This document shows positions 2,595 through 61,643 of a stretch of DNA of 64,000 bases, piece by piece. Position 1 is the first letter of the stretch, and every line of letters starts with the position of its first letter. A model generated the notes under the pieces. It had not been told where the DNA came from and ran no database searches. It was given only the letters and a program-made list of their open reading frames with translations. Source of the stretch: Heterotrichella gracilis (taxonomy: Eukaryota; Sar; Xanthophyceae; Tribonematales; Xanthonemataceae); NCBI GenBank assembly GCA_032358255.1, contig JAULBX010006553.1:59606-123605 (forward strand), in the 5' to 3' direction. A program made the translations under genes and the position numbers.

Positions 2595-5500
2595 CTAGCT
2601 GTCCCCCACCCGCCTGCGCCGCAGCATGTCCACCACACTCACACCACCACCACCACCAGTGCCCACGCCACCATCCCGACGCCGCTTACCACCCCGCCCT
2701 GTGTGCGCCTCCGTCACATGCCCCCGCCCCGCGGCCCGCTGCGCCGCAGCCATATTTTGCATCCCCACGCCCCGCTCTTCCTCCCCCTGCAGCCTCACAG
2801 CCAGGTGGTAGTCGCGGTGCTCCGCCATGAGGCCAGCACCAACCGCTGCGCCGCATTCAGGGCAAATCCCAGGAACAGTTGTCACACCCAGTCCACCCCC
2901 AAAGTCTGCATCCCCGTCCCCAGACTCCCGGCCCCTTGGCTTGCCGTGAATGGCGCCAGCGAGCGCACAACAGGGTGCGGGGTGCGGGTCTTGCAGGGCC
3001 AGTGAGTTGGAACAGGGTGCTGTGGTATCTCTGATGGATGCTTGTCCTCCACCGCTGGTGCTCGGCTGGTTGGCATGACCATCCCGGGACTGCGCGGCGG
3101 GAAACTCAAATCGCCGGTCCACATCCGTTTTCATCCCAGGGAGGCACTGTGCGGGTGTGGGGGCAGCGGCGGGTGGCAGGCAGCGCAGGAAGCTGCGTAT
3201 GGATGGCTGCTGGTGGGCGGTGGTGGTGGAGTGGTTTGGGCGCAGCGGGTATGTGTCACAGATCTCGCAGGCCGTGGCGGAGGCTGGGTTGTAGGCAAAG
3301 GTGCACACCCGGCAGGTCCAGTGCTCGCTCCCCTCTGAAGCCCCAGAGGTGGTTGCCCTGCCCACACATTCACACTGGTCAGTAGAGACAGATTAAATAT
3401 ACATTTGGTCTTTGGCCTTTGGGGATCATAACCAAAACACATGGTACAGCCAGGTTGCATCAGCACATTTGCATGCATGGCCTCCCTGCATTATCCACAT
3501 GGTCCTGTAGTCCTGTTTTGGCAGATGTGCATGCGCCCAGCCTTCACAGCCAGGGAGTAAAGCCACAACCCCAAACCCTAAAACCCTAGACTCTAAAGCC
3601 GCCCAGCCTTCACAGCAAAGGATTCCAGACTCCCGCAAGTCCCCAGCCTCGCTCACCCACAAGCATCGCGCTCCCCTTCAGCATCCCCACCTCCCTCCCC
3701 CTCCGGTCCCGCATCCCCATCCACCCACTGCCTCAGGCTGGCCTCAATGTCACTCTGCGTCTGCGCCTGCGTCTGGGACCGAGCCCAGTCCCTGAGGCTG
3801 AGATCCGCCTCACATGGCTCACATGGCTCTGCATGCGTGGGGGGTGATTGTTGTAAAAATGCAGCTATAGGCAATGTTGACGGTTGCAATTAAAGGGGTC
3901 TGACTGGACAATGACGAAATGGGCTTGCAAGTAAGACATGTACTGGCATAGACAACGGTCCTCCCTTGCGTTGCCAGTGCCGCCAGCTGTGCACACTGTG
4001 CAACCCCTTATGTACCGTAAACTATCAGCAACGTCAAAGCAAACCACCTTCCCACTCACCTGCCTCCCCACTCGCCGCCTCCCCATCCCCACCACCCTCC
4101 TCCCCGCCCCCCACTGGTCGCCGGAGAAAGCCTGCAATGCCCCGCTGCCCCTTGGGAGGGGTGCGCATCTGCACAAAATTCGACACCCTGATGCCCATCA
4201 GCCGGATTTCCAGCGGCATTTCAGCACGCAGCAGGCGCAGCGCCACGGGGAGGATGTCGCCCGCCGTGGCGGCGGGGTGGGGCAGGCTGGTGGCGCGCGT
4301 GCGCACCTGCGCGGCGGAGGGTGGGGTAGGGTGGGTGGTGGTGGTGGTGGATGGGTGAGGCAGGCTGATAGTTGCATGCACACTTTGCAACGCACAGATG
4401 GGGTGGAGCAGTCCTTGAAATTTGCCTTATTCAAATAGTTTCTTGGGTATAATTACAAACATTAAGGCAGCAATATGTGGGACTGCTAACCTTGCATCAG
4501 CAGTATCGCCCTGTTACCCACCGCAACCGTACACCATACATCCTGGATGGGGTTTTGTGCAGCTTGAACATCATGGAGTGTGCAAGGGTGCTGCTACTTT
4601 GGCTGAGCCTGGACGACCTTCTATCTTTGACCAAAAAGAATGCAAATTCATACTGGTACTCCCCATGCCAACACGCACACCCACCTCAAAGTTGGTTTCC
4701 TTGAGCTTGAGGGTAAGAGTGCGCCCCCGCAGCCCCTCCGCCTCCATATCCTCGCCCAGGTGAGTCGCCAGCTCAGCGCACTGCGTGGCCATTGAATGCG
4801 GCATTTACCATAGGATATCGAGTACGTCAACTAGCAGAAGAACACATGGCATTCAGCAGGAGAAAGTGGCATGATCAAGGGCAAACCTAAACCCTAGACC
4901 CTCAACCAAGGCATGAGTAGTCGTGCAGGGACGGGTATGCAAGGCCACCATTGCGCCTTCTCACCACAAAATACAACAACCCTCACCTGGCCCACCATGT
5001 TCTTGTGAGGATTAGGGTTTATTTATTTGGGGTTTAATAAAAACCCTACCTTGGCCTCCAGGTCAGCCCTGGCGCTCATGGGCCGAAAGGTCCTCTCGCA
5101 GCTGATGCCCTTGCGCCCCACCTCACCCTCGCGCGGCGCCTGGCCGTGGCGCGTGTCCCCCAGGCCCAGCCCCGAGGTGAGGAAGAACTCGACTGCAACG
5201 GGGGAGAACAGGGCTGCCAGCAGCGCCCTGCGGTGCAGCAGGTGGGCGCACTGGTGGACGTCGAAGGAGCGCAGGATGCCCTCCATGACCTACAAAATGT
5301 ATTGACAGCTCCTGATTTTGGTGTGTGCTTGTGACCATGGAAAAGAGTTTGTAACCTTGCCAAACACCCTATTGACACCATATAGACATTGCAAATGTCA
5401 CAAACCAATGCCCATGCAATGCAAGCGTTGGTATGGTCAAAAGCATTGTCGTGGACACTGCATCCTCAGCCACACACCTTTCCCACCCTCCGGACCTTGC

Positions 5501-7603
5501 GGATGGGCAGCACAAACCCTACCCTTAATCCTAAATCCTAAATAGCCGCGCACCTTCCCCACCCCTGGGACCTTGCGGATGGGCACTATAACCCTAATCC
5601 TAAACCCTAAATAGCTGCGCACCTTCCCCACCCCCGGGACCTTGCGGATGGGCAGCGTCTCCACAAAGCGCATGACCGCCTCGCGTTGGGGCGCCAGCAC
5701 GTACTGCCCATTGGGTTTGTTAATATCTGAGCAGACCTTGGCTAGGGTTTTGTTGGGCGCCACGCCCACGCTGCATGTGAGGCGGGTCTCGCGCAGCACG
5801 CGGGTGCGGATGGTGGCTGCCACCTCCTCGCCTGAGAGGGTGCGCATGGGGGGGTGTGAGGATTTATGCAGTGTGTTTTGTATGTGGGTGATGCGAGTGG
5901 TAATGTTGGGGTCGGTGGTTGTATGTGGCTTGTTTGGCGCCGCGCTTCAAATGGAAACAAGGAACTTAAAGATGGAAATTCCCAGTCAAGGAGGACTACC
6001 TTGCCTGACCAAATGCACCGACAGCATCCATGTCTTGGGCCTGTACAGTGTACAACAATTAGGCAGCGGCTGTCCTGGCCGCACCTGTTACCCCATGCTG
6101 CTGGCAGTAATCCGTGACATCAAGGTAGGCTTCGTCCAAGGAGCCCGCCTCAAAATCTGGGTCGTAATCCCGGAAAATCGCCCTGGTGGCCTGAAATAAA
6201 TAAGGCAAAATACTGAGAGCAGGCTTCAGTTACATGTATATGACTTGAACATGTGCGGGCAAGTGACGGGGGTGTGGGATGCAATGTGCGTGGACCTTAG
6301 GCCCTGCTATAAATAAAATGATGTACGGTAATCAGTGTCAGAATACAACCTCCTGGAGTCAGTTGGCCTGCATATGCAGTAATAGTTGCAAATTTGGCTG
6401 CATCATTAGACTGCATGAAACCAACCCAAATAGCCATTGTGCACAGTGGTAGGGCTGCGGTACTTGCCTGGCTGGCTCGCGTGTATTTTGTGAAATCCGG
6501 CTTGATGAAAGTCAGCTCGGGGCACAACTTGAGGGCGATGAAGCCCGGCATGGCGCTGCGCACGCCGTACCTCCTGGCAGCGTAGTTGGCGGTGCAGATC
6601 ATGCCCATGCCGCCAACTGCCATAGGCGTGTCCTTCTGCACAACATACATAAAATCCATAGTGATCTTAAAGGAATTGATGATGACCACTGATGTACGTA
6701 CATGGTCAAATAATGGAAATATTTGCCATTATCTGAAAACAACTTTCATACAGTCCTCAATATCCAGGGCAGGAGCGAGGAACCCTTGCGCTTTCTCACC
6801 ACCGCGGGGTTGTCCAGCTCTTCAACGGCAGCATAGAATGCATCCATGTCCACGTGGCACCACGTCCTGGTCAGGTCCCGGCTGGCTTCCAGCTGCGCTA
6901 CCTTGGCATCCAAGGTCCTGGGGAGCGCCGCGTTGGGATTGGGATAAGGTGCAGCGGGAGGGGTAATGAGCAAGACTGGCATACACGTAGACCCTAATGG
7001 GCTCAAGGGTGCACAAATGGGGGTACCCAATGATCCTAATGGGCTCAAGGGTATTAAAGGAGGAATACCCAAATGACCCTAACGGGCTCGAGGGTCTTCA
7101 ATGGGGGGTATTAAAAGAGGAATATTGTTCGGTACCCACATGACCCAATTGCAGTGACCCCACTGAATGAGCACACTGGCCAAGGGATTGCGCCCGCGGG
7201 GAGAAGGGAGGAGAGAAAGTAGTGCCCAATGTCAAGGAGGAAGTGGAGCGTACTTGGTGTTTGCAGCTAGCTCGGCTTCTGAGAGCTTCTTGGCTTTGCC
7301 ATGCAGGTTGGCGATCCTCTGGTCAACCTGGACCTGTTTCCGCTGCTCGTTCTTGAAGTGGGCAGAGTCCTGAGGGTAAACACAACCCCGTAACACGCCA
7401 GGTCAGCAACTAGTGCCCCTACAAGGCCCAACATGGCCCACAATGTGCAAGCAGCAGGAAGACCACTTTAACCATCTCACCTTGCTCATTTCGAACACGA
7501 TTTTCTTGACTTTGTCCTTGTCCACTGCATCCATGCCTGCTTTCCCGTTGGTGAACACCGACTCATAGTCTTGCCACTCGCAAGCTTTCTTCCCTCCGTC
7601 CAT
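2595..7603 (-). CDS. POLK: DNA polymerase kappa (Y-family translesion polymerase), 11 exons, 785 aa
   Basis: Translesion DNA polymerase of the DinB/kappa branch, acting in the nucleus to extend past damaged bases. Exons, 5' to 3': 7603-7481, 7369-7254, 6917-6800, 6635-6468, 6190-6085, 5831-5623, 5289-5050, 4780-4685, 4306-4060, 3828-3657, 3357-2595. All phases agree, giving 2358 nt. The N-terminal NGKAGM element, typical of kappa, is near residue 25. The palm has Asp103 and Asp105 ([12 protein letters not shown]) and SLDEAY (Asp194, Glu195). The helix-hairpin-helix [11 protein letters not shown] is at 270-280. The little finger ends near LMGIRVSNF (about 436). The tail carries a RanBP2/NZF-type finger (Cys547, 550, 562, 565), a PIP-like QPSIRSFL (582-589) and a C2H2 UBZ finger (from Cys697). 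Intron 4 has a GC donor (AG|GCAAGT at 6467). The start at 7603 gives MDGGKK; an in-frame ATG at 7627 is also possible. Confidence 0.95.
5471..5655 (-). repeat. Three tandem copies of the exon 6 3' edge and splice donor in the polymerase kappa gene
   Basis: The functional end of exon 6 ([10 protein letters not shown] followed by GTGCGC, at about 5611-5655) is repeated at about 5541-5585 and 5471-5510 inside the following intron, with a period near 70 nt. Telomere-like degenerate blocks lie between the copies (CCCTTAATCCTAAATCCTAAA at 5521-5541, ACCCTAATCCTAAACCCTAA at 5591-5610). The nearest intronic copy keeps [10 protein letters not shown] and a GTGCGC donor, so it could act as an alternative 5' splice site. 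The outer copy has drifted out of frame. Confidence 0.9.
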
Positions 7604-9395: not shown

Positions 9396-9396
9396 T

Positions 9397-9440: not shown

Positions 9441-10754
9441 TCAGAGATTTGGCACCTTCCACCATTTGCTCCCCTCCTTTGCATTTGTCTCCACACTGCA
9501 GCTGCCACCAGCCTGGCCTGACCAGCGGCAAATGGCCAGTCCCTCTATCTGGCGCATGGTGATGGTGCTGGAGGGCGTGGTATGGATAATCAAGTCAGGT
9601 GCGCAAGCATCGTCTTCTATATCGTCGTCGTTACGGTCACAATACACCTGCCGCAAGCTGGGAACCCAAGGCACCTTTATGGTATGGAACTCATCAAAGT
9701 TGTAGGCAGAGATGTACAACTCCTCCAGGCATGGAAGGCTGGGGAGGGAGGCAAATGCACGCCATCCAAGTGAGCCTGTGTTAGCAGCCACTGTCACCTC
9801 CAAACCCAATTGCCTGAGGTTAGCTCCACAGCTGTCAACAAGCCATAGAGCTGGATCACGCATCCCTGTGAGATGGACCTGTGCCAGCAAGCACAAATGC
9901 TGCAAGGAAGCTGGCAGAGCGTTGTTTGTCATGTGAACCTGCTCCCCCACTACATACAGCGCCTCCAGTCCCACTGGCAATACGTTGTCGCCCAGAGTTA
10001 GCTGAGGGACACAAATAACTCTGATGCTGCGCTTGGCACAGAACAGGTTGGATATCCCTCGAAGCTTACATCCGCCAGCGTCGATTGTGAGCGAGGACAG
10101 CTGAGGTAGGTGCTGCTGACCCCATGCCTCATCAAGGCCCCTCCCCTTGTTCACCCATATCACAGATAGATCTGACAGCAACGCTGGCAGCAGCGGCATG
10201 CAGTCCACTTGCAAGCCAAACTTCAGCCTTGTGAGGGAAGTCAAGCTGCTCAGAGAGTTTACGGGAGATACAACACTGGAGAGTCTGTCGACCAGTGTGA
10301 GGTTCTTCAAGTTGACAAAGCCGCTCAGGCTATGAAGCTCAAGGGAGGTCCAAAGAAGACATGACGTTGCTTCGTAGTACAAGTACTGCTGAAAAGCAAA
10401 TTGCTGGAGCTGCCGTCGTGGCAGTGCAGCAAGCAACCACAGCCAAGTTTTGCTGAGGTGTGGGATCTTTGCTGCTGACGTTGCATCGTACCCAATATCT
10501 ATATCCACACTGCTTGTCGCCTGAAGCTTGGGTCTCAACCACTGCAGGAACTGGTACCACTTCTTTTCTGGTTGGCACCACATTGTACCTCCCAGCTGCC
10601 CCAGCTGCAGGTGCTGCCATGCCACACTGGGGCCGTCGAGGGCTGCCTTCCATGCCTTGCACACTGCCTGGGACCTCACTTTGCTCGTCAGGTCCAGACT
10701 GGAGAAGACCTGCTGCAGCAACTCGGCTGGGAAGTGGGCTAAGCTGGGTGTCAT
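9441..10754 (-). CDS. F-box/leucine-rich family protein, paralogue A (437 aa)
   Basis: Likely substrate-recognition subunit of an SCF-type ubiquitin ligase, acting in cytosol or nucleus; this role is inferred from the F-box. Residues 6-50 (FPAELLQQVFSSLDL, AVCKAWKAAL) form the F-box. Irregular leucine-rich segments follow (LSSLTSLTRLKFGL, LPQLSSLTIDAGG, LPASLQHLCLLAQ). The C-terminal block is shared by the family: DLIIHTTPSSTITMRQ, then EGLAICRWSGQAGG. I chose the ATG at 10754 because MTPSLAHFPAE is shared with paralogues B and D; the frame is open 30 codons further up. The coding part is intronless. A splice donor (GCAG|GTATGT) follows 42 nt after the stop. First of four tandem copies; the substrate is unknown. 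Confidence 0.8.
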   Translation of the reverse strand: MTPSLAHFPAELLQQVFSSLDLTSKVRSQAVCKAWKAALDGPSVAWQHLQLGQLGGTMWCQPEKKWYQFLQWLRPKLQATSSVDIDIGYDATSAAKIPHLSKTWLWLLAALPRRQLQQFAFQQYLYYEATSCLLWTSLELHSLSGFVNLKNLTLVDRLSSVVSPVNSLSSLTSLTRLKFGLQVDCMPLLPALLSDLSVIWVNKGRGLDEAWGQQHLPQLSSLTIDAGGCKLRGISNLFCAKRSIRVICVPQLTLGDNVLPVGLEALYVVGEQVHMTNNALPASLQHLCLLAQVHLTGMRDPALWLVDSCGANLRQLGLEVTVAANTGSLGWRAFASLPSLPCLEELYISAYNFDEFHTIKVPWVPSLRQVYCDRNDDDIEDDACAPDLIIHTTPSSTITMRQIEGLAICRWSGQAGGSCSVETNAKEGSKWWKVPNL

Positions 10755-10904
10755 TATATCCGGATATGCAACGCTGGCACGAGAATACAATCCAGGAGCC
10801 CTCAAAGCAAAGTGCAAGGTGCTCACACCCTGCGCACGGTACATATAACAGTAAATTAGCGTGGAAAAAGGTTAACCAGTAACTAACCATAACATTGGTT
10901 ATGG

Positions 10905-11042
10905 TTCCGTATGCATATGCATGCATGCATATGTCTCGACAATACAGTGCTTACAAAGCGGAGCAGGTGGCACTGCGAGAGGCTGAGGGGTACATGTTGC
11001 GGTTGGTTTGCGTACCACTGGACTCTGGACAGATCCCTGCGT
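10905..11042 (-). promoter_or_regulatory. Conserved upstream module of F-box gene A
   Basis: Two blocks recur in the same order upstream of all five F-box paralogues. The distal block is a run centred on GTGGTACGC (here 11009-11042, TCCAGAGTCCAGTGGTACGC in coding orientation, identical in gene E). The proximal block is a GAGACA-like run followed by an alternating CATGCATGCA tract (here about 10911-10937), about 160-175 nt before the ATG. CATGCA matches the plant RY element bound by B3-domain factors; whether it is used that way here is unknown. Confidence 0.6.
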
Positions 11043-11159
11043 TGGTGCTGTTTACTGCTTTGGTGCCAATTTGATGGTGTCGACAAGCTGCTGACAAAGG
11101 CTGCGAGGTTATGGGGGACTGTGACCGAACACGTATGCCAAGAGCTGATCTAAAGTGTT

Positions 11160-12090
11160 ATGGTAGTTTATAAGCTGATAGAATCGCCCACAAATCGTCT
11201 AGTTTGAACTTCATGATGTGCCCAAACTTAATTGAATTTGTTGTTACATTTATTCTCATTTAACGAGTAATACTTTTTTTTCAAGGAAATAAAGCCACTA
11301 TTGAAAGTCATCCTGAAAAGTACGTTTGGGTTGCAGAACAACTTCACATCATGTGTTCAGCAACGCAGATAAAGTCACTTGAAAGTAGTTCACAGCCTGT
11401 CGGGTGGCCGGACAAGAACTGGGAACGCTACCAAAAATATATCAAGCAACAAGCCACAACACAAGGGAAGCCAGGGTAAACCCATGGTGAAAAGCAGGCA
11501 GAAGCAGGTCTTTTTTCAATCTATTTATCAAGAGAGAAATAGAGTAGGAGCAACTGTGACACCAGTGGAGTGGTTCTATGCCAGGACCACGTCCATATGA
11601 GCACGTCAGCGGCTTGTATGGCATACTGTGGATTACAATAAGTATTGAACAAGTGAGGGAGACGATTGACTGCAGTGGGAGGAATCCCAGTTCAGGAAAC
11701 AGGGTTCCAGCCAGCAATGTAACAAGCGGTTGTGGTCAGCTGAGGGGTGGCACGCCATGGCAGGGGCTGGGGGCTGGTCAAAGTGCACTCCACACCTGCA
11801 CGGCAAGCAGCACGGCAAGCACCACTCGTCAGGTATGAAAATGAAGATTAACATGGTGCAAAAGGAGCCACCACGGTGGATATGGTGGCAAGATGTGCAA
11901 ATGAAGGGTTTTGATGGAAAAACGGGATGTAGGGCACAACAACAGGGTGGCACATACTGCGCATGGGTAACTGCTCGTGAGTGGTACCGCGCGAATGCCA
12001 AGTAACTAGTGAACTAACTACGCACACCGGCATACCTCCCAGTCACTACGTGAGCCGGCACAACAAGCAACTCTAGCAAATGGGCAACAT
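11160..12090. other. Intergenic DNA between F-box genes A and B
   Basis: No supported gene. The part near 11660-11800 resembles the downstream flanks of the other paralogues and probably contains the terminal 3'-UTR exon of gene B (acceptor-like TGCAG|GTGTGGAG near 11796 in minus orientation). Confidence 0.4.
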
Positions 12091-12141
12091 GCACATACCT
12101 GGATGCGTGAGCAAGGCTGGCGCTTGCTGAGCCACGCCATG

Positions 12142-13449
12142 TCAGGGATCCGGCATCGCCCACCATGGGCTCCTCTCCTGTGCTTTTGCCTCCACGCTGT
12201 AGCTGCCGCCAGCCTGGCCTGACCAGCGGCAGATGACCAGCCCCTCTACCTCCCGCATGGTGATGGTGCTGGAGGGCGAGGTGTGGATCACCAAGTCGGG
12301 TGTCTCGTCTTCTTCATCTTGGTCATCGGCAAGCTTGATTGACACCTGCCGTAGGCTGGCAACCCAAGGCACCTCTACAGGTGGTGGCTCATAGTAAGTC
12401 AAGGCGCAAATGTGCAACTCCTCCAAGCGTGGAAGGCTGGGGAGGGAGGCAAGCCAGGCAGGCGCCCCAAGTTGATCCGACACTGTCGCAGACAACCCCA
12501 GTCGCTTGAGGTTGGCTCCACAAGGTGACCATGGGGCTAACGCGACAGCCTCCTCTGGATGTGTGGTAGCCATCAAGCACAGCTGCTCCAAGGAAACTGG
12601 CAGGGCGTTGTCTGACAGGTGAAGCTCCTCTGCTCCCACATGCAGCTCCTCCAGCTCCACAGGCAACGTGTTGTCATAGAGGTGCAGGTGGCCGAGGTTG
12701 AACAGCCTGATGCTGCGCTTGGCACACAACAAGGCCGGTGTTCCGTGAATGTCACCATCACCAGCATCAACTGTGAGTGAGGACAGGTGGGGTAGGTGTT
12801 GCTGACCCCATGCTTCGTCGAGTCTGCTCTCATCCGACCATACCACGTGCACATCTAAGAGCGAGGCTGGGAGATGCGGCATGTGGTCCACTGGCAAGCC
12901 AAACTTGAGCATTGTGAGGGAAGTCAAGCTGCTCAACGCGTGCAATGGGGCTGAAATCTTGGAGCTTTTGTCGACCAGTGTGAGGTCCGTCAAGTTGACA
13001 AAGCCAGCCAGGCGATTAACCTCCAGGGAAGTCAAGAAGAAGCCTGCTGCAATTTCGCCGACCTCCTGCTGGTGAAAAGCAAACTGCTGCAGCTGGCGTG
13101 GGAGTGCGGCAAGCAACCACAGCCACGACTTGGCGAGGTGTGGAGGTCTTGTGAACAGCACCGTACGGTCTGCAATGTGTATATCCACGCTGGCTGTTGC
13201 TTCAAGCTTGGGTCCCAGCCAATGCAGGAACTTGTGCCAGTTGTTTTCTGTCTGGCGCCACAGTGGGTTTTGGAGGTTTAAGTCTACAGGCTGCCCCAAC
13301 TGCAGACGTTGCCAGGCTGCGCTGGGCCCATCAAGGGCTGCCTTCCATGCCTTGCACACTGCCTGGGACCTGACTTTGCTCTTCAGGTCCAAAGTGGAGA
13401 AGACCTGCTGCAGCAACTCGGCTGGGAAGTGGGCCAAGCTGGGTGTCAT
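12142..13449 (-). CDS. F-box/leucine-rich family protein, paralogue B (435 aa)
   Basis: Same family as A. The F-box is at residues 6-50 (FPAELLQQVFSTLDLKSK, AVCKAWKAALDG). Leucine-rich segments run through the middle, for example LSSLTSLTMLKFGLP, LPHLSSLTVDAGD and LPVSLEQLCLMAT. The family C-terminal block is present (PDLVIHTSPSSTITMRE, EGLVICRWSGQAGGSYS). The ATG at 13449 (MTPSLAH) matches A and D; ATG codons at 13452 and 13479 are in frame upstream. There is no coding intron. A conserved 3'-UTR donor follows 43 nt after the stop. The frame is intact, so the gene is probably functional. Substrate unknown. Confidence 0.8.
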   Translation of the reverse strand: MTPSLAHFPAELLQQVFSTLDLKSKVRSQAVCKAWKAALDGPSAAWQRLQLGQPVDLNLQNPLWRQTENNWHKFLHWLGPKLEATASVDIHIADRTVLFTRPPHLAKSWLWLLAALPRQLQQFAFHQQEVGEIAAGFFLTSLEVNRLAGFVNLTDLTLVDKSSKISAPLHALSSLTSLTMLKFGLPVDHMPHLPASLLDVHVVWSDESRLDEAWGQQHLPHLSSLTVDAGDGDIHGTPALLCAKRSIRLFNLGHLHLYDNTLPVELEELHVGAEELHLSDNALPVSLEQLCLMATTHPEEAVALAPWSPCGANLKRLGLSATVSDQLGAPAWLASLPSLPRLEELHICALTYYEPPPVEVPWVASLRQVSIKLADDQDEEDETPDLVIHTSPSSTITMREVEGLVICRWSGQAGGSYSVEAKAQERSPWWAMPDP

Positions 13450-13599
13450 CATGCCCTCACACCGCTGGCACCAGTTCACAACTTCAAACCTCAGACGTAC
13501 TCACACCCTGCACAAGGTACACAGAACAGCGGTTGACCACTGGAATCATACTAGCTGCCTGACAGTGAGGGCTGGGTGTCGTTAAGTGTGTGTGATGTA

Positions 13600-13735
13600 G
13601 TGTCATTTGCATGCATGCATGTGTCTCAGCTATAAAGCACTGCCCGTGAACCCCAAAAATTATGATGTGTGACACTGCAGCAGGTAAAGGGGTATATGTA
13701 GCACATATTACGTACCACTGAACTGTGTACAAGTT
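13600..13735 (-). promoter_or_regulatory. Conserved upstream module of F-box gene B
   Basis: It contains the CATGCATGCA tract (about 13606-13622) next to a TGAGACAC run, and the distal block around CAGTGGTACG (13710-13733), in the same order and spacing as in paralogues A, C, D and E. Confidence 0.55.
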
Positions 13736-15060: not shown

Positions 15061-15114
15061 GGCCTCCACATACCTGCATGATCAAGCCGAGGAGCTTTCC
15101 TGGACCAAGCCATG

Positions 15115-16406: not shown

Positions 16407-16534
16407 CACGGTGTCAGCTGGGGTGTCCTTTCAATGCAGCCTGCCAGTCGCTCATACACTGCACACGGTACAAACAACGGCGTTTGACCACTTATGGATG
16501 ACCAGCGGAAACCATAGCAGCTATACCAGTACGC

Positions 16535-17725: not shown

Positions 17726-17728
17726 CCT

Positions 17729-19201: not shown

Positions 19202-19369
19202 TCTGCACTCGCCTCAAGCTGGGTCGCAGGCAGCAGCTTCACACAACCCAGGAAACTTCAAGGCATGCTGCCAGGTGCCCACAGCCTGCATAAGTTACAC
19301 AGATCAGTAGCTGAATACTTGAAAGCAGTACTGGCCTGGCGTGCTAGGTGCAGACAGCCTGGGTTACAG

Positions 19370-37663: not shown

Positions 37664-37785
37664 GCTCCTCCAGCCCCGCTGCTCCCAGGGTTTAGAGTAT
37701 CCCCCTCACTCCTCCAGCCCCGCTGCACACAGGATTTAAAGTCTCCCCCCTCATTCCTCCAGCCCCGCTGCATACCCTAGCACCT
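37664..37785 (-). repeat. Three tandem copies of the armadillo gene stop-codon region
   Basis: The last codons (GCAGCGGGGCTGGAGGAATGA in gene orientation, about 37751-37772) recur at about 37706-37727 and 37664-37682. GGGTTTAGAG-like and GGATTTAAAG-like spacers at 37689 and 37732 resemble degenerate telomere motifs. Period about 45 nt. Confidence 0.85.
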
Positions 37786-40700: not shown

Positions 40701-43700
40701 TGTAGCAAACATGGCAAAATTCATGGTTTTCTTTTATTCTTAAATTTCGTTCAGTAATTAATGTTTCAATAAAATAAATTACTGATTTCAACATAATATG
40801 GATTGTTTAAAATTTATTGAGATATATTACATTATCCACCCGCGCCCTCACCAGGGTTCTCGCTCTTGAGCGCCTCGATGAGCGCCGCGATTGCCCCCGA
40901 CTCAACAAACGCCTTCCCCGTGTCATCCACCCAGTCAGACAGCGTGCGCAGCGCAAACGCAGCAGAAGCCTGGCAGCTGGGCGCTCCCGTCTTGGCCAAC
41001 AGGGGCAGTAGGGCGGGCACCGCCCCCGCCCCCACCACTGCTATGGCTGAAGGAGAGCTGTTTGCCAGGTAGCCCAGGGCCAGGGCGGCGTCTATCTGGC
41101 ACGACTCTTGCTTGGATCCCAGCAGCTTGACCAGGATGGGCAGGGCTTTGGCCTGTGGAAGAAAATGAGGGAGGGTTTAAGGTTTTAAGTTTAGGGTTTT
41201 GAAGTGAGCAGCTTGTGCACCCTCCTCTCCCCCTCCTCCAGCACAAATCCCAAGTTCCGCAGCTGTGTAAGTATCAACTCCCCCCCCACCCCCCCCACCC
41301 CCCCCACCCACACACCAAGCTACACAACAGAACTCCCCTCCCCTCCACCTCACCTTGAATATGGCGCCCGATGTGGCCGGCGAGGTGGCCATCGACCGCA
41401 GCAGGAACGCCCCGTATTTCTGGCACACCTCGCTCTTGGACTGCAGCAGGCGCAGCAGCGTGGGCACCAGCTTGTCGTCTGTGGTCACCGCAGCCAGACC
41501 CCCAGGGCCGCTTGCCTTGGCCAGGTTGCCCAGGGCCATGGCGGCGCTCTCCTGCAGGGCCACGTCCTGCGGGGGGGATGAGGTAGGGTATTAAGGTTTG
41601 AGATGGGGTTGTATTCAGGATTGCCCAGGGCCATGACGGCGCTGGCGCTGCGCTCCTGCAGGGCCACGTCCTGCGGAGGTAGGGTATGGGTTAGGATTTT
41701 CCAGCGCTGTGGCGGCACTCTCAAGGGTTTTACTAAGGGTTTTGGCCAGGTTGCTCAGGGCCCAGGGCAACATCCTATGGGGAGAGGCGGGAGGTTGCCA
41801 GGGTTTTGGTAGGGGTTTTCTTGAGACTCTTGTTGGGGTTTTGCTCGGGTATCTCAGGTCGATCCTCAGCACCAAAACTACCTTTCTTGAACTGAAAAGC
41901 GCCGCATTACATCAGCCCACACCTTGGATTTGAGCAGCGCCACCAGCGCCGCCGGCGCGCCCGGCTGGCCCACCACGTGCGCCTGCGTGCTCTGCTCCGA
42001 CAGCAGGAACGCAAACAGCATGCTGGCGTACTTGCGCACGCCCTCGTCGGGGCTCTGCACCAGCCCGATCAGCGGCAGCGCGGCGCCGTGCTTGGTGATG
42101 TGCGATGGCACGCCCTCCTGCTGCGCCAGGCCCGCCATGAGGACCAGCGAGTGGCGTTGGAGGTCGGTGGAGGAGGAGGACATGCAGCGCACCAGCTGGG
42201 GCAGCACGCCGCCGCGCACCATGGCGGGGTGCGAGGCGGGGTCCTCGGCGATGGACTGGAGCATGAGCAGCGCGTCTCTGCGGGGTGGGTGGGTGGGGTG
42301 TAAGGGTGGAGGTGGGGACCCAGGCGGGGGGTGCGGAATTGTTTCGTGAATTGTGTCAGCTATTTTAGTGAGACTATCTAGCATGCCATGTGTGAGCATG
42401 GTTGTGGGGTCATGTCCTGAAGAGTGTCAGCGACATGTGGGATCCAATACCAGATGCTCATTTTTCTGGTGTTTGTGATGTCCCAAACACTGCGGCTTGC
42501 CAAAGTGTCTGCTGACAATGCACATCTGCAGAAGCTCATGACAAGCCTCCACACAGCCTCCCTCCCAACCCCAATACCACCCACGTACATTTGCCGCTCT
42601 GGCCTGGCGTTGTTCATTGCCCCCAGCAGCGCAGCAACCACCTTAGGGTCCAGCCCCCTCCCGCTGGCCCCAGCCCCACGCAGCAGGGTTGTGAGCGACT
42701 CGATGCCCGCCTCCCGCACGCCCTCTGAGGGCGAGTCGAGCGCCTGTACCAGTGCTTTGAAGCCACCCGCTGCCACCAGGCGGTCAGTGACGGCGGGGTC
42801 GGTGGAGGCGGCCATGCGGGCCTGTGGGGGATGGGTTAAGGGTGAGCTGGGTGGTGGGGGTGGAGGGGAATGCATTGCAGAATGAGTACCATCCCACTTG
42901 CACCAAAACTCTACCCAACCCCACCAACACCCAACACACACTCTGTCATAACCCCAGCCCCATCTCCCATCCCCACCAAACACCACCACTCCAGCGCATG
43001 CACCGCCGCCCCAACACCTGGTTTTGCAACTGCGCCTCCATGTGCGGCCTGATGGCAAACCAGGAGCTTCTCACAAAACATCCCCATCCACGCACTAGCG
43101 CACCCCCCAGTCGCCGCTGACACAGGTCCCCACCCCATACACCCCTTCAAACCCCCCACCACCCCGGCGCACGCACCACCGCCCCCGACGCTTGGTCCTG
43201 CAGGTGCGCCTCCCCGTGCAGCATGATGTCCAGCAGCGGGCCAGCCGCCCCCGCCGCCGTCACAGGGCCGATCAGTACAGGGTCCTGTGTCATGCGCGAC
43301 AGGGTGGCCACTGCCATGTCCTGGCAGCTAGGGTCCGGGACCTGCCCAGAGAGGGGTGTTTGTTAGGGTTTTGTAAGGAGAGGAGGTTGGCAGGGTTTTA
43401 GGTTGGGTTAGGGGAACTGTATGCGGCCAGGTAATTTTCCTTTGACAGAGAGATGTCTTTTACACTTGCCGTGGACCTAAAGTGGGGCCTTTGCTTGCAT
43501 GCCACAATGGTGCCTGCACACACATGCAGACCCCCCCCCTGTTCCCCACCGGCCACCTCCCAACCCGATCCCCACCTCCATCATGTGCACCAGCGCGGGG
43601 ATTTGCCCCTGGTCCCCCATTGTCTTCTGGATCTCCTCATTGCGCATGAGGTTGCCCAGGCACACAGCCGCATGCTGCTGCATCACCGGGTCCCTCCCCG

Positions 43701-50100: not shown

Positions 50101-50106
50101 GTTGCA

Positions 50107-51701: not shown

Positions 51702-54700
51702 TCACTTTTGCTGTTTGCCGGAAAAGAAGGCAGTGATGTTCCGCTGCTTACCACCTCCTGTGCCACCCCCATCCTTCGACCCAGGTGCGCCCCGCTTGCC
51801 CAATGTCGCTTTATTCCCCTTGTCTCCCCTGCCCCCTGCTCTACCTCCCTTGGCAACTGGCCCCCGTTGGCCCTCATTTGTCCCCCCCCCTTCATTGTCA
51901 TCCCCCCCCCTTGCCTCCACACCAATACGCGTACACCCAGCCTCCAGACCACCCTCCACACTCCCCACCTCCACAGTCACCAGCACACCACTCCCTTCCC
52001 CTTGACACATTGGGTGGGTACTGCCAGAGTGTATGCCGCCAGCGCCTGCCGAACCATTACTTGCCGCACACGCACTCGATGCTGTGTCCACATTAGCAGG
52101 AAGTGCCAGGGATGCAAGTGCTGCTGCGGCTCCTGGGGGGGCCAGATCATCATCAGGTTGCAAGGGGATGCAAACCAATTTGCCGTGGGGTGCAGCGCCT
52201 GCTTTAGCGCCCTGCTGTACATCCTGGGCCCCCGTGCCTCCTGCTGCATTTCTGGCATTTGCGCTGGCGGGATCTGCAGCATGTGGTGGAAATTCCACAT
52301 TTAGTTCACCGCCGCTGTTGCCCACAGACCTGTCCCCACCACCTGCAGCTGGCTTTGCACCAGCACCAGCACCAGCACCAGCACCAGCACCAGCAGCTGA
52401 CCCCCCGCCAGCAGCCCCACCTCCCAACCCCACCCCAGCAAGTGACGAAGGCTCCTCCCCTGTTCGTTGACCATCGCCACTGGCCTTCCTCCACTGGGCG
52501 CTCTTCCCCCCTGCTTTCCCCCCCTGCTTCCCAAACATGGCTGCGATGCTGCGCTGCGAGGGGTCGTTGAATCTGCGCATTTTGAGGGAGGAAAGGGCGC
52601 AGGGGGGGTGCGGCGGCAATGGGGGGACGTCACATAGGTCCAAGATAATACCAGCATGGTCGCTCCTGCACATCACACAAAGCTAGTCGGTTCATGCATC
52701 CCAGCAGGACACATTCCAAGCAAATTTGTAAGACCTGCCAACACAGACATTGGATGCAGGAGCTATGTAAGGGTGGCAGCTGACTTCGCTGTATTACTGG
52801 AACGCATGCAACTGGTAAACTCTGGCAACCATCACATCATGTCCCATCCTTGGAACAATTGCGCCACCCATCTGGTAGGGTAGGCCAGATCATGATCACC
52901 CTAATGCTGTTGCTATGCAAGGTCTTTTGAAAGTGCCCAACACATGTGAGACACCTGCGCAGGTTTGCGCACCATTTCTGCGGTGTCTCCAGCATGGTGC
53001 ATGCCTGCAGGTGGGGCAGCAGCCCCCGGCTGATCAGGAAGTAATCGATGCGCAGACCCTGCATTTGGGATAAGCAATGAGGCTGTAGGACATGGCCAAA
53101 CGCAGGATGTCCAGCAATGCCCTAAACCCTAAACCCTAAACAGCACTGCTGAGCCCACAGCGGCCAGAATTCAGACACAAGTAGCCCCCAGAAATTAGGC
53201 AAATACCACAGCACTACAGCCCAAAAGAGTAGCTAGATAACCAATCCCCAGTGCCCAAAAGCAAGGTCCCCACACTTGTCCGGTGCAAACCACATCATGC
53301 AAAGTAATCAAACAGGTAGATAATTAAAATAGAATCCACACCCACACACCTGATTGAAGGCGCGTGCACTTGTCTTCTCGTCCCACACGGTGTATGTGCT
53401 CTTGTCCTCAGGGTGCAGGTGGCGCCACACATCAATGTAATCCGATCGTAGGGATGTGATCAGGTCGACCTCGGCTTGGGAATACAATTTGTCGTAGTCG
53501 TAGCATGAATGGACGTCTGACTGGGAGGCTGCAATGTTGAGATCCCCCGTAATGATGACCTGCAATGATTGGCAGGACGAAAAAAAGCCCTGATTGGGAG
53601 AGCATGTGCAGCATTTTGGACATGCTGATTGAGAGATCTGCAGTCACTCAGATCTACACTGCAATAAAGAAGGGCCTTCACAGCTAATGCAAGCCACATG
53701 GGCTGATGACCCCTTGCCACTCCTGTCCCCACTTAGCCACCTCCCTCTCTACCGCCGTCAAACACACCCCTTAACGTCCCCATCACTCTATGGTCCCTCA
53801 CCCCCACCTGCCTCCCCTCTGCCACCACACCATCATGCAACCCCTTGCGCCCTGCCAGAAAACCCTGAACCCCAAACAACCTTCACTCCGCCATGTCATT
53901 GCACCACCCCTTGAGCAATGCCCAGAAACCCAAAACCCTAAGCCCTAAAACCCTTGACATTCCCCACCTGCCTCCCCTGTGCCACCAGACCATCACACCA
54001 CCCCTTGAGCGCTGCCAGGAAGCGCAGCTTGAATTGCAGTCGGGGCCTCTCTCCCCGATCCCCCGCATTGGGCGCGTACACATTGACCAGCACAAATGCG
54101 CCATGGTCAGTCATCACCACCCTGCAGGTGCAGAAAGCAGGGAGGAACTTGTCATATTCTCAGCAGCATTCTGCCCACGGTCCTATCCATATGCCAATCG
54201 GCTTTTCACAGCCGAGCAGTCAGAGGTACTGATTTCTCTTGAGTACCTCTGACTGCGGCAGGTCTATATCAATTTACTGTGGATTTGAGCAGTAACTACA
54301 TCGTTTGGTTTCCCAACATCACATACGTTGCCCATGCAGTTTGCACGCACAGCCTCACCTCCCTTCTCTGTCAATGTCGTCCTCGCCAGACCCCAGAAAG
54401 TCTGCCCTTGCATCCACAGGGGAGTAGGGCTGTCGAACATATGTTACCACCCCTGACAACACATGAGGAAATATATGTCACCACCAACCACCTGGTGGCA
54501 GCACATGTTAGCAGCACCCATTGCAGCACATGACAGCAACGACATAATGCCGTCACGCATCAGCAGCAGGTGAACTTCTCGCAGCGTGCATGTCAGCAGC
54601 AGCCAAAGAATGGCAGTGTCCATGCAGTCAGGAACCACCTCACCGCCAACACACATGCATATATAACTTATATAATATAAGCGTTGACCAAGGGTATGCA

Positions 54701-57574: not shown

Positions 57575-60500
57575 TTACACATTGTACTGCGCCCCCTTGT
57601 CCAGCACCCGCCGCATCTCCCAGGGCTTGACCTCCCTGCAAGCAAAGTGGGAACAGGGTTTAGAATAAAATTCTCGGCTCCAGCTTAAGGTTTAAGTTTA
57701 GGTTTGATTCCTGCGTGTCCCCATGTGCTTTGCCTCCCACCCAGCGGCCAAGAAATAATGATGGGTTCAGGTTTACGGTCTGTATTTAGGGTTTTGGAAT
57801 GAACCCCTGCCACGTGTCCTGCTTGACATGCATGCGCCAAAGGGCAACAAAGGCGAGCCAATGAGCAGGCGCCATGCACCCTCTGGCGTGATTCAGAGAA
57901 GACCAAACCTATCCTTAACCAAACCCTAGGGACTGAAGGCGCTGCAGTGGTCAAACCTTGACATGACCCACGGTTATAGCTCCATATCCCTTATTACCAC
58001 CAGCGCACCTGAACTGGCCGATGTTGAGGTTGCGCGGCATGCGGTAACCCCCTATGCGCACCCTCTTTAGGGCCTTCACCTCAAGACCCACATTGGCCAT
58101 CAGTTGACGCACCTGGGGCAAGGGGGGCCGGGAAGGATTCAGGGGAGGTGCATTGCAAGGCAAGCCTTATGCCGACATAGATTTTTAACATTGTATAAAC
58201 TCCTAATCCTAAACATTGGTCACTTTGCACTCTGAAATCTGGAGAGGTGAAGAGGTGAGGGAGGTGGCCGCCATCCCCCACCCTCCATTTCCAACAACAC
58301 ATGGGCTGATCTGACCCATCCCCACCCCTGCTCCTCACCTCCCTGTTCCTCCCCTCCGCCAGCACCACCCGCACCCGCGTCTTCACCATTGGATCACTGT
58401 CATCCACCACCACAGCCACAGGCGTCACGTAGGCACCATCCACCACACACCCACCCGCCACCCCCTGCAGCTGCGTGCGGGATGGCTCTGTGGCTGTGGT
58501 CACCACATACTCCTTGGTCAGGCCAGAGGAAGGGTGCTGCACCTGCTGGGCCCAGGCGCCTGGGGGGGGTGAGATGTGTGGGGGTAAGTTTTCTTGCTTA
58601 GGGATTAGTGTGTATATAGCATGGTCTAATGGTGAGTCTAGTGTGTGCGCATGGTCTAATGGTGAGTCTAGTGTGTGCGCATTGTGTGTTCAGTGGCTGT
58701 GGTCACAACATACTCCTTGGTCAGGCCAGAGGAGGGGTGCTGCACCTGCTGGGCCCAGGCGCCTGAAGGGAAGTGCAGAAGGGGTCTTATACACATTTAT
58801 GCAACAAGCGGCACGCCACAAAACCTACCAGGATCATAATTTGTCTGAGGCATTCCGGGTCGCATAACCCCGTATGGGCGTGCAAAAGGGCGTGCACCAC
58901 CGATGCAATGCAACGGCACCAGCATGCACCTGGTGTGCATACCAGGGGTGCATACCATCCTTGGCAAAGAATCAGGAGAAATCGCCATGCAATGGTGATG
59001 GGCACCCAACCCAGGACCGTGCACCATCACTGGCGGTAAAACATAGACAATGATGCTGATACGTGCCAGTGGTGCGTACCATCATTAGTTACAAAGATGA
59101 GCCCTGTGGATGCCACATCCAGGCGACCTACTGTGAATAGACGAGGGGGAAGTGCAGACTGCAGGAGGAAGGGGAGGAATGATATGTTAGCAGGGCTGCA
59201 AGTAGCAAGGCGCATGACACAATCAATGATTGAATCAGGGATTTGGCGGGGCACCGGTGTGTGGCGTCCTGTAATCTGGAAGTGGAATTTTGCGCTGGAG
59301 TGGTGGTCTGCATGTACAATTTTTGTGCAGGAATGTACACAATCACGAGTTGTCTACCATGCGTGAATGGAAAGCAAATTAACACCGGCCTGTCTCCAAG
59401 CATTAATCTCAATCAGGGCAGTGACATGAAATTCGCATGAGGAGTGTACTCTAGCCACTTGTATTGCTTGCGCACATGGGGAAGACATGCCATCGCCTAG
59501 CACGACTGGCGCACACCATGGTGCCCAACACACGCCCAGCAACACAACCCCCTCCACCACAGCTGACCCCCCTTCCCCCCCATCCCCCCACCCCCCACCT
59601 TTGGCCTTCCATATTTATACTCCAGCACCCAGTCATGAAAACAGGTCCACCACCATCTTGGTCTTGGACCCTCATTCCCATGTTTCGCCCCAACCAACCC
59701 CCCCCCCCACCCAAGTCCCCAACACCCCCCCCCCCCCCCCCCCCACCAACACCGCCATCACCACCCCACATCCCCCAGCCCCCACCTTTGGCCTGGTCTT
59801 CTTCCACTCCAGCACCCAGTCATGGAACAGGTCCACCACCAGCTTGGCCCCTGGGCCCTCATCCCCGGGCTTGTTGGTGCACAGGAACCCCTTGGGCTTG
59901 TTCAGGGCAAAGTAGTACAGCTGCGTCAGCTGCTGCCGGATCTCCTTGCCATCCACAGCAATCTGGCGGGGGAGGAGGGGGCTTTGGTGAGATGCGTATG
60001 CTACAACCAGTTGGCTACGCCTTGGTGCTTATGCATGAACAATGTCAGCACTGCATGCAATACCCTGACCAGTGCTGCACCAATGTGAGCGCGACGTTGT
60101 ACCCATTGGTGCACCGCACGACCATGGCGTGGGCTACATGTAACATCCTATTGTGCGCTCCCCCCCCCTTATCCTTGGCAGCGTCTACCCAAGCGCACCG
60201 CCCCAACCAGTGTGCATCACCTGACAACAATATTCATTGCACCGCTTGACTACCATACCTTCACCAGTAGCCCCCAGCAATGAGCCCAAGCCCTAGCTAA
60301 TGATGCATCGCATGGCCATGATATCCCATCGCCATATGTTGTCCCAAACCTTATCCTTGGCTGCGTCTACCCCATGTTGAGCCCACTGCCCTAACCAGTG
60401 GTGCACCCCCTGACTACAATACCCTAACCAGTATGTGCACCGTGAGTGCATGTCATACCCTAACCAGTGGCCCCCAGCTATCAACCCAAGACCCTAACCA

Positions 60501-61643
60501 GTGGTGCACCGCATGGCCATGGGCCACACATGATATCCATCCTATAGTGTTGCCACCCACCTTGTCCTTGGCTGCATCCACACATTGTTGGGGCTGCCCT
60601 GCCCTAACCAGTGGTGCACCCTCTGAATACAATACCCTAATCATAAGGCCCCAGCTACCAGCCCATTACCCTAAGCAGTGGTGCATTGCATGGCCACCCT
60701 GGTGTGTGTCACCCACCGTATCCTTGACTGCATCCACTCGTTGTTGGGGCTGCTCTGCCTTGACCCCGTTCACCGTCACCCGCCCCTCAAAAATGATCTC
60801 TTCTGCCGCCCGCCTGGAGGCCACTCCAGCGCCTGCCAGCACCTGGGGATGGTGGTAAATGGACGTCAAGATGTGAACTGATGGCCCTCTGCCAGGGAGA
60901 ATTGGTGTAAAAATGCATGGAGGGAGGGGGTTGGGGACGGGTTGCGGGGACTCGAGGGCGACCGGATTTGCCAGCAGACTACCCCACCAGCCCCCCTTCT
61001 ATGTTTATGGAATAGAATGGGTTAATCATGGAAATATCTACAACAGGTGGGCTGTGCACGGTGTGTGCCGTTGGGCTCTGTTGTGCTCTGGCAAGGGAGG
61101 TGGGTTGGTGGGGTTGTGTGGCAGGGGACGGGTTTTTGAAGGAGTTGTGGGAAGCATATGTGTCACACCACCAGGTCATACCTGCAGTGGAGGCCATGAG
61201 TGCACGTACGCGGTGTATATCTGACACATGTGTATGCCACAATGCATGCATATCGGTGTCAAACTGGCGGGAAAAAAGCTGCCGTCACACAGATGCCCTC
61301 CGTGATACAACCATGGCTCCTTTCACGACCTGCATGCTTTGCTGATTGTTTGTATCACCTTGCTGAGCCGCTGTGGCTCGTTGGAAAGCTCCTTCTTGCT
61401 GCCTTGCACGGGCTGCTGCCCTGGCGGGTTGTGTGGCGGTCGAGCTGTGCCCCCGCCCCTGCTGCTGCCTCCACCCCTGCTCTGCCCGCCACCCCCGCCG
61501 CCCGACGGTCTTCTGAACGTCTGTTGGGAAGCGGTGGTCACCACCCGGCGCTGCACCAGGCAGGCCCTCCTGGTGGGTGGCGGTGGGTTGAGCCAGTGGG
61601 TGCAGGGGCTGGACAGGTGTGCGGGGGAGTGCACTAACACCAT
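57575..61643 (-). CDS. Plastid-type RNA pseudouridine synthase (RsuA/RluB family), 7 exons, 350 aa
   Basis: Converts uridine to pseudouridine in ribosomal RNA. The Arabidopsis relative SVR1 works in the chloroplast, and the Arg/Ser-rich first 80 residues here (RRACLVQRRVVTTASQQ) fit a transit peptide; location is inferred. Exons: 61643-61359, 60842-60717, 59962-59786, 59158-59080, 58559-58339, 58112-58009, 57635-57575. Phases agree (1053 nt). The S4 RNA-binding domain starts at RLSKVLAGAGVASRR (92-106) and includes EGRVTVNG. The catalytic core has YYFALNKPKGFL and GRLD with catalytic Asp210, then STGLIFVTNDG and HPSSGLTKEYVV. The end reads ALKRVRIGGYRMPRNL, then WEMRRVLDKG. Length is near that of bacterial RluB plus a leader. 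The stop codon is part of a TGTAA, the polyadenylation signal of many green algae. Confidence 0.92.
58484..58764 (-). repeat. Duplicate of the exon 5 5' edge, with a 30-bp tandem repeat, in the pseudouridine synthase gene
   Basis: About 73 nt covering the acceptor and first codons of exon 5 (AWAQQVQHPSSGLTKEYVV) occur twice: the exon itself (58559 downward) and a copy at 58764-58692 with its own TTCAG acceptor. The copy runs out after TTAT. Between them lies an exact two-copy 30-bp tandem repeat (58621-58650, 58651-58680). Confidence 0.85.
59730..59752. repeat. Poly-C tract
   Basis: A run of about 18-20 C lies in the intron after exon 3 of the pseudouridine synthase gene. Length is likely variable or affected by sequencing error. 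Confidence 0.7.
60165..60765 (-). repeat. Four copies of the exon 2 3' edge in the pseudouridine synthase gene
   Basis: The real end of exon 2 (QPQQRVDAVKDT, about 60717-60765) is repeated in the intron at about 60557-60605 (QPQQCVDAAKDK), 60348-60395 (HGVDAAKDK) and 60170-60215 (WVDAAKDK). The unit is 160-210 nt and includes intronic CCCTAACCAGTGGTGCACC runs, so exon edge, donor and intron start were copied together. The nearest copy keeps a GTGGGT-like donor. Confidence 0.85.

Follow-up and report, generated by a model that had tools for sequence, protein, structure and literature searches.

Copies of exon edges, some with telomere-like filler, in introns of Heterotrichella gracilis hint at intron growth through a repair process

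Results

Exon edges are copied into adjacent introns

The window, a stretch of 64,000 nucleotides of the xanthophyte Heterotrichella gracilis (assembly GCA_032358255.1, contig JAULBX010006553.1, positions 59,606 to 123,605), holds four genes that we modelled by hand: Pol kappa, an armadillo gene, APE2 and a pseudouridine synthase (PUS). The models comprise 34 introns and 68 edges and have no internal stops when translated in the chosen frame. Three of the four were checked against Pfam, which returned IMS for Pol kappa, Exo_endo_phos for APE2 and PseudoU_synth_2 for PUS; the gene to which the first modelled PUS exon belongs carries S4 in addition. For each edge, an exon-only query was compared with the adjacent intron and with 200 dinucleotide shuffles, and a copy was called significant when 0/200 shuffles reached its score. 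Such a copy was found in the adjacent intron at 7 of the 68 edges, in addition to one array at a stop codon. The features are as follows, all on the minus strand.

5623..5831, minus strand: Pol kappa exon 6 (gene model; IMS domain), donor edge as source; edge score 59, 0/200 shuffles
5444..5585, minus strand: two more copies of this edge in the intron (spacing 69 and 76 bp), separated by TTTAGGG-like filler
37665..37772, minus strand: armadillo stop-codon edge array, period 44-45 bp, CTAAACCCT-like filler
41354..41566, minus strand: armadillo exon 8 (gene model), acceptor edge as source; edge score 57, 0/200 shuffles
41621..41679, minus strand: copy of this edge in intron 7, 104 bp upstream
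43177..43341, minus strand: armadillo exon 5 (gene model), donor edge as source, absent from the original prediction; edge score 41, 0/200 shuffles
42983..43054, minus strand: copy of this edge in intron 5, offset 173, 78% identity
44541..44574, minus strand: armadillo exon 3 acceptor edge, weak copy of 34 bp, 91%, offset 137
53968..54121, minus strand: APE2 exon 6 (gene model; Exo_endo_phos), donor edge as source; edge score 68, 0/200 shuffles
53802..53932, minus strand: two intronic copies of this edge, with TTTAGGG-like filler
60717..60842, minus strand: first modelled PUS exon (gene model), donor edge (60717) as source; edge score 60, 0/200 shuffles
60155..60609, minus strand: decayed copies of this edge in a 754-bp intron, with repeated GGTTAGGG blocks
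59786..59962, minus strand: second modelled PUS exon (gene model), donor edge (59786) as source, absent from the original prediction; edge score 76, 0/200 shuffles
59576..59679, minus strand: copy of this edge in the intron, offset 188, 82% identity
58339..58559, minus strand: fourth modelled PUS exon (gene model), acceptor edge (58559) as source; edge score 131, 0/200 shuffles
58690..58765, minus strand: copy of this edge, 203 bp upstream, 96% identity

The original prediction held that pieces spanning exon edges are repeated beside the original. This duplication into adjacent introns is real, and the 330-kb sample described below shows that it reaches beyond the window. Among the listed cases, Pol kappa exon 6, armadillo exon 8 and its stop codon, APE2 exon 6 and two PUS edges were recovered. 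Armadillo exon 3 turned out to be weak: its exon part of 13 bp was matched by 6% of shuffles, and the pair including intron bases passes the threshold for a duplication pair. The outermost copy of the Pol kappa donor edge runs into the intron without TTTAGGG-like filler. In the PUS copy at 58690..58765, all three exon-part differences are synonymous, and this locus matched only itself when used as a genome-wide query.

The window also contains intron-only repeats (6990-7095, 38865-38944 and 58619-58682) and 21 matches to telomere-like sequence against 0.25 expected. Seven of its nine duplications lie at edges, where 3.7 were expected (P 0.027; P 0.19 if edge cases survive two-fold better). By itself, the window does not establish edge enrichment, and it is the wider sample that carries the proof.

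Duplications concentrate at exon edges in a 330-kb sample

The wider sample consisted of 330 kb of the same genome, with exons called by a self-trained, home-made gene finder that placed 27 of 38 curated exons exactly and that, in 24 of 81 clusters, treated both members of at least one pair as exonic. These 81 local duplication clusters comprised 60 at exon edges, 15 confined to introns, 4 between exons and 2 others. Under a null in which duplication events are placed at random, 30.9 of the 75 genic clusters were expected at edges, compared to the 60 observed; at ≥88% identity, the count was 20/25 against 8.7. The preference of duplications for exon edges, put forward in the original prediction, is supported in this sample. 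With an alternative null, in which whole footprints were slid along the annotation, the expectation rose to 41.1 of 75, with a maximum of 54 in 400 runs; the event-based null fits such events better.

Copies span all ages, from 67.8 to 97.9% identity. Copying also recurred among diverged paralogues: L031 carries two additional copies of the exon 3 donor, L033 has one of its own type, and none was detected in L017. In the sample including L031-L033, offsets of 96-110 were observed 19 times (9.5 expected), those of 202-216 14 times (6.5 expected) and those of 150-164 5 times (7.0 expected), in windows picked after viewing the data. The intron part of acceptor copies at ≥88% identity measured 1-12 bases in 10 of 14, which is partly an artefact of requiring at least 12 exon bases.

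Telomeric tracts lie close to exons and between copies

Perfect 21-mers of the telomeric repeat numbered 834 genome-wide, compared to 0 for the reversed control. TTTAGGG, the terminal repeat of plants and green algae, is presumably the terminal repeat here too; the near-terminal telomere-like tract that we inspected was interstitial. Among 109 tracts of at least 12 bp, 105 were intronic and 1 was exonic. They were densest within 40 bases of exons, and most pointed outward. In the two 20-base bins nearest the exon, G-sense density on the donor side was 0.95 and 0.80 per kb and C-sense density on the acceptor side was 0.71 and 0.81 per kb, against 0.06-0.30 deeper in the intron in both cases. 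C-sense tracts were dense within 20 bases of donors too (8 tracts, 0.63 per kb). Of the tracts near plain exons, 40 pointed outward and 8 inward.

Direct copies flanked 39 of the 105 intronic tracts, with a reversed-flank control of 0/105. This flank duplication was seen at 29/60 tracts within 60 bases of exons, at 7/23 at 61-130 bases and at 3/22 beyond. By orientation, it was present at 20/47 outward and 9/13 inward tracts (15/40 and 4/8 after exclusion of doubtful exons), and 5 of the 13 inward tracts adjoin exons that may be outer copies.

The telomere-like blocks reported between copies were likewise confirmed, being enriched over expectation in both donor and acceptor spacers at a telomeric score of ≥20. 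Of 19 donor spacers, 7 carried TTTAGGG sense (0.4 expected) and 2 CCCTAAA sense (0.3 expected); of 29 acceptor spacers, 7 carried CCCTAAA sense (0.4 expected) and 4 TTTAGGG sense (0.7 expected). Outward TTTAGGG was present in 12 edge fillers and inward TTTAGGG in 3, a modest polarity (P 0.035), and in 8 of the 12 the tract stops within 6 bases of the outer copy. Genome-wide, a donor-like word was followed by TTTAGGG 429 times versus 278 times by CCCTAAA, and an acceptor-like word was preceded by CCCTAAA 731 times versus 521 times by TTTAGGG. Since TTTAGGG contains AG, it would be disfavoured before acceptors anyway, and part of the polarity may therefore be due to selection.

Intronic copies decay neutrally

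Synonymous and nonsynonymous differences in intronic copies numbered 13:12 at ≥90% identity, 51:68 at 80-90% and 58:94 below 80%, close to the share of roughly 41% synonymous differences that, by our own estimate, an unconstrained copy beside a conserved exon should show. These counts argue that the extra intronic copies evolve neutrally. Selection for decoy splice sites, the other explanation offered in the original prediction, is thus not supported, and neither is a selected alternative exon, for which coding constraint would be expected; the edge preference and the telomeric spacers are supported, and break repair with telomere addition and local copying is the origin favoured below. Where both copies of a pair were called as exon, synonymous and nonsynonymous differences numbered 21:8 at ≥90% identity and 6:7 at 80-90%, and a few of these copies could be used.

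Alternative origins of the copies

The edge excess might arise if tandem duplications occurred everywhere, those inside exons were purged and those at edges were kept, one sound edge being left; such pairs would be recognisable for longer owing to the conserved exon copy, and the telomere-like motifs would be common intron sequence caught up in the duplication. We consider this somewhat unlikely as the main origin, in spite of the neutral decay that it shares with our data. True head-to-tail arrays do exist (L017 exon 16 at 104 bp, L032 at 95-96 bp, L031 at 217 and 205 bp, and a triple of 53 bp in L001), and the armadillo stop-codon array indicates that splice sites are not required. However, the repeated piece covers a median of 0.41 of the offset in young edge pairs and reaches ≥0.9 in 1 of 20, so that most are not head-to-tail. 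The outcome further depends on how strongly edge cases are favoured. With a two-fold bias the excess persists (P 0.00001 for all clusters, 0.002 at ≥88% identity), as it does with a three-fold bias (P 0.005 and 0.03), and with a four-fold bias it is no longer significant (P 0.067 and 0.11); we reason that one protected copy raises survival at most about two-fold. Moreover, 15 of 50 edge fillers were telomeric, compared to 5 of 50 equal stretches past the outer copy, a modest difference (P 0.023).

The telomere-like motifs might instead be splicing signals, namely, G runs near donors and a branch point with a C-rich tract near acceptors, whose fragility or repetitiveness duplicates the edges nearby. 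Their distribution suits such a role, with 306, 145, 126, 118 and 22 TTTAGGG-rotation 7-mers in successive fifths of the intron and 155, 96, 105, 148 and 235 for CCCTAAA. However, the intron totals are lower for control words, by a factor of 6 to 8.5 for reversed and 4 to 6 for shuffled ones, and splicing signals do not predict the direct copies flanking 29/60 near-exon tracts, which makes this origin improbable.

Two alleles stitched in tandem during assembly are a very improbable source. The material was not a pure culture, as a bacterial contig shows, some young copies differ at synonymous sites only, and the L017 exon 16 array adjoins a run of N. Nevertheless, the similarity does not extend into the flanking introns in the majority of 16 high-identity pairs inspected by eye, copies are of all ages, nonsynonymous differences are common, and arrays of 3-4 copies occur. 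Least probable of all is a mobile element (introner-like or MITE) that targets exon edges and duplicates an exceptionally long stretch of target, which would account for the copy-insert-copy layout and the offset peaks near 104 and 205 but is largely refuted in the sample by the lack of a shared insert, since two loci used as whole-genome queries matched only themselves (in a search that skips very common words) and 44 fillers with telomeric words masked gave no filler-filler match at E < 1e-4.

Discussion

For the layout, statistical polarity, edge excess, neutral decay and recurrence that we observed, we favour an origin in break repair, at a confidence just short of even: the edge copies would be scars of breaks repaired near exon edges, with telomeric addition and local recopying. 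What we infer concerns telomerase, the type of break, the order of events and the cause of the edge preference. A break would fall at, or just outside, an exon edge, and the end of the exon-bearing fragment would gain filler, either telomeric G-strand repeats, for which telomerase is the simplest source, or another sequence. It would then be rejoined to DNA restarting some tens of bases back within the exon, either because the added 3' end re-anneals inside the exon and the edge is recopied or because the two sides of a long staggered break are filled in and joined via the filler. Read outward, the typical product would be edge, filler, TTTAGGG repeats, second edge copy and old intron. The gene would survive because one intact edge remains beside the exon; the outer copy would decay as intron, and the intron would lengthen, a gain of about 100 or 200 bases being the commonest. 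Arrays could later expand by ordinary unequal exchange. Against this repair scheme, only 15/50 edge fillers are telomeric, flank duplication is not confined to outward tracts, and the Pol kappa and armadillo-stop units (44-76 bp) fall outside the mode at about 104 bp.

The process is related to the known insertion of interstitial telomeric repeats. Short interstitial telomeric sequences (short ITS) are inserted during double-strand break repair in horse and human, with primates and rodents cited, and direct target duplication is described at 3/66 horse loci and deletion, addition and duplication at 2 more (PMC7215372). Internal telomeric repeats above chance and repair-type direct target duplication were found here too, and a role of telomerase is proposed there as well. 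In contrast to the mammalian loci, where insertion looks random, no human case falls in an exon and the intronic share of 31% agrees with chance, the tracts here hug exon edges and mostly point outward, and 39/105 intronic tracts have direct copies on both sides. A tandem duplication over an intron-exon boundary, comparable to ours in spanning an existing splice boundary, is known from potato RdRp (PMC4974935); that is a single case in which a new intron was made, with telomeric filler unmentioned in the abstract. The earlier statement that no named process matches was thus too strong.

In Drosophila, intron sliding and tandem duplication of proto-splice sites are described, in which, as here, an exonic piece is duplicated and one copy intronized (PMC2891723); there, new intron positions are created, whereas the edges and introns involved in our recopying were already in place. 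Direct repeats near intron/exon borders have likewise been linked to break repair; they measure 4-30 bp and come from comparing the two borders of an intron (PMC11782384), whereas the copies found here are longer, derive from a single edge and in part carry telomeric filler. In intron gain by AGGT tandem duplication, the donor would come from the first copy and the acceptor from the matching point of the second; in the aligned cases here, an edge that already existed was copied within an intron that already existed. Neither exon-edge copying with telomeric filler nor the concentration at exon edges with outward polarity was found in the mostly open-access literature searched.

A bolder reading, which we consider doubtful, is that exons behave as ends to be capped: adjacent breaks would be healed with telomeric repeats in the orientation of a chromosome end and re-fused by recopying of the exon edge, with about 104 bases often added at a time. 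Telomerase-driven recopying would then be a main force behind the growth and turnover of introns in the genome and would also supply new splice sites. Intron growth and the origin of intron sequence are poorly known, and here young events are visible in ordinary genes, many of them tied to break repair by their telomeric signature. If breaks truly favour exon edges, the lineage would naturally record the places and manner in which coding DNA breaks and would offer a direct test of the role of telomerase away from chromosome ends.

As a separate observation on base composition, CpG observed/expected was 0.60 in exons and 0.49 in introns, a possible clue to methylation-linked nicking.

Copied exon edges in the window

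Four genes of the window, which lies in an assembly of 68.5 Mb and 903 contigs, were modeled by hand: Pol kappa, an armadillo gene, APE2 and a pseudouridine synthase, with 38 exons and 34 introns. The reading frame used is open along all four models, with Pol kappa modeled to a point short of its 3' end and the synthase without its 5' end, and Pfam supported all three models submitted. At 7 of 68 exon edges (donor or acceptor), we observed a copy in the adjacent intron with a score unmatched by any of 200 shuffles. Most of the edge copies named in the original prediction are among these seven, and its armadillo stop-codon repeat is a clear array; its copy at armadillo exon 3 proved weak, and two significant copies lie beyond its list. 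The Pol kappa alignment contains three copies with TTTAGGG-like fillers between them and no such filler beyond the last copy. Intron-only duplications outside edge arrays were found in armadillo intron 13 and synthase intron 3 (score of 41 used), and the tandem finder returned a further intron-only repeat at 6990-7095.

The end of Pol kappa exon 4 is modeled with a GC donor (CAG/GCAAGT, window 6466-6467); by reasoning, the single GT alternative considered would break the frame. Five large ORFs at 9441-19213 and 62329-63762 have a common FPA(E/Q)LLQQVFS-type start and, judged from their translations alone, look like an F-box/LRR family.

Excess of duplications at exon edges

The analysis was extended to a 330-kb sample composed of 26 usable stretches out of 28 chosen by place, two 3-kb loci and the window. 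All sample counts use one annotation, that of an HMM gene finder trained on the sample itself. The finder recovered 27 of the 38 curated exons without any difference; the 11 others include 3 last exons, where a mismatch is inevitable since its exons exclude the stop codon. Among its predicted proteins are PCNA, TspO, a DEAD-box helicase and a class 3 lipase, and of eight proteins submitted to Pfam, three of which belong to the window, seven gave a match at 1e-5. CpG is depleted in the sample (observed/expected, 0.60 in exons and 0.49 in introns), a hint of DNA methylation. One stretch, L003 (G000:C1:10001-20000; GC, 36.6%), belongs to an 894-kb contig with long bacterial ORFs that look Bacteroidota-like from their translations; the assembly therefore includes a bacterium.

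Self-matches no more than 800 bases apart gave 133 pairs, of which 118 passed filters for short offsets, N and low complexity, forming 81 clusters: 60 at exon edges, 15 intron-only, 4 exon-exon and 2 other. The expectation that repeats coincide with exon edges more often than by chance was borne out, with 60 of 75 clusters at edges versus 30.9 expected when identical block sizes were put uniformly into 623 introns. At ≥88% identity, the values were 20 of 25 versus 8.7. This excess persisted when survival or detection of edge cases was assumed to be two-fold better (P = 0.00001 for all clusters, 0.002 at ≥88%) or three-fold better (0.005 and 0.03) and was lost under a four-fold bias (0.067 and 0.11). 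In the window by itself, the excess was not significant once a two-fold bias was assumed. Clusters are unevenly spread, with 14 in the lipase gene locus L017 and none in 9 of 28 loci; the pattern stays when L017, L011 and L013 are omitted (37 of 45 versus 17.7 expected).

Telomere-like tracts and fillers

Telomere-like tracts of at least 12 bp numbered 109 in the sample: 105 within the 210 kb of introns, 1 within the 100 kb of exons and 3 within the 19 kb called intergenic. Gene-sense TTTAGGG tracts peak in the first 40 intron bases on the donor side and CCCTAAA tracts in the final 40 upstream of acceptors, an orientation resembling two capped chromosome ends. As an exception, CCCTAAA is also dense within 20 bases past donors (8 tracts). 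Among the 60 tracts no more than 60 bases from an exon, TTTAGGG runs away from the exon in 47 and toward it in 13 (40 and 8 when possible outer-copy exons are excluded). Directly copied flanks on both tract sides were found at 29 of these 60, at 7 of 23 tracts lying 61-130 bases away and at 3 of 22 deeper ones, and a reversed-flank control detected copied flanks at 0 of 105 tracts. Inward tracts also have copied flanks (9 of 13 overall, 4 of 8 at plain exons); thus, the orientation of a tract and the duplication of its flanks do not always go together.

Telomeric sequence is likewise far commoner between edge copies than in length-matched random intron pieces, and some of it has the opposite sense (Table).

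Table. Spacers with telomeric sequence, observed (expected)
Donor spacers (19): TTTAGGG sense, 7 (0.4); CCCTAAA sense, 2 (0.3)
Acceptor spacers (29): CCCTAAA sense, 7 (0.4); TTTAGGG sense, 4 (0.7)

Read outward from the exon, 12 of 50 fillers contain TTTAGGG and 3 contain CCCTAAA, the other 35 being non-telomeric; length-matched stretches past the outer copy are telomeric in 5 of 50. In 8 of the 12 TTTAGGG fillers, no more than 6 bases separate the end of the tract from the outer copy; in 3 of the 12, its start lies equally close to the inner copy. Genome-wide pattern counts ran in the same direction as the sample, both after a donor-like word (TTTAGGG, 429, versus CCCTAAA, 278) and before an acceptor-like word (CCCTAAA, 731, versus TTTAGGG, 521), with ratios diluted because short words also match by chance.

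Shape, age and spacing of the copies

Young edge pairs mostly consist of copy, filler and copy: the median ratio of repeated length to offset was 0.41, and only 1 of 20 reached 0.9. In intron-located copies, synonymous versus nonsynonymous differences numbered 13 versus 12 at ≥90% identity, 51 versus 68 at 80-90% and 58 versus 94 below 80%, by our estimate about what is expected when a copy free of constraint lies next to an exon that is conserved. Where both copies were called exon, the counts were 21 versus 8 at ≥90% and 6 versus 7 at 80-90%, and some outer copies may therefore be in use.

Repeat offsets peak around 104 and 205 bases in L017 and other loci. Neighbors no more than 300 bases apart were also sought genome-wide, by eye, in the first 100 places for each of four donor- or acceptor-telomere patterns; among the matches listed there were at least 14, with 10 lying 94-115 bases apart and the rest 44, 63, 80 and 206.

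Proposed mechanism and known relatives

The layout of the copies fits a break near an exon edge, after which the exon-bearing end would gain telomeric or other filler and be rejoined to DNA restarting within the exon. The edge might be recopied after re-annealing, or a long staggered break might be filled in from two sides; the two variants give an identical product and are indistinguishable here. Edge duplications would be readily tolerated because one intact edge stays. Exon-centered breakage, with purging of wholly exonic products, would account for the fewer events in intron interiors, and is also favored by the stop-codon array, since no splice site is involved there.

Related events are known. 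PMC7215372 describes short interstitial telomeric sequences inserted during break repair, with random-looking placement and direct target duplications at 3 of 66 horse loci. Other reports describe a potato duplication spanning a splice boundary (PMC4974935), a Drosophila exonic tandem duplication with intronization (PMC2891723) and widely reported short direct repeats by splice sites (PMC11782384). What is new here is therefore the surplus of duplications at edges, the tendency of the repeats to be oriented as if capping exons, and the step of ~104 bases.

Recurrence among probable paralogues

The lipase gene of L017 has at least three matching places elsewhere, with 40 of 185 candidates scored, and these look like paralogues. 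At the exon 3 donor, the comparison revealed two extra copies in L031 (spacings of 217 and 205 bases), one in L033 with L033-specific bases in common and none in L017. At exon 22, it detected no extra copy in L033 and one each in L017 and L032, probably inherited from a common ancestor; L032 has an additional copy with a 95-96-base spacing and GGGTTTAGGGTTTGGG-like filler. These differences argue for independent events at the same edge and later array expansion.

ARAGORN returned no tRNA in L017. A dispersed element of ~73 bp at L017:7555-7628 matches at least 34 further genomic sites with 84-97% identity, counted with 40 of 185 candidates scored.
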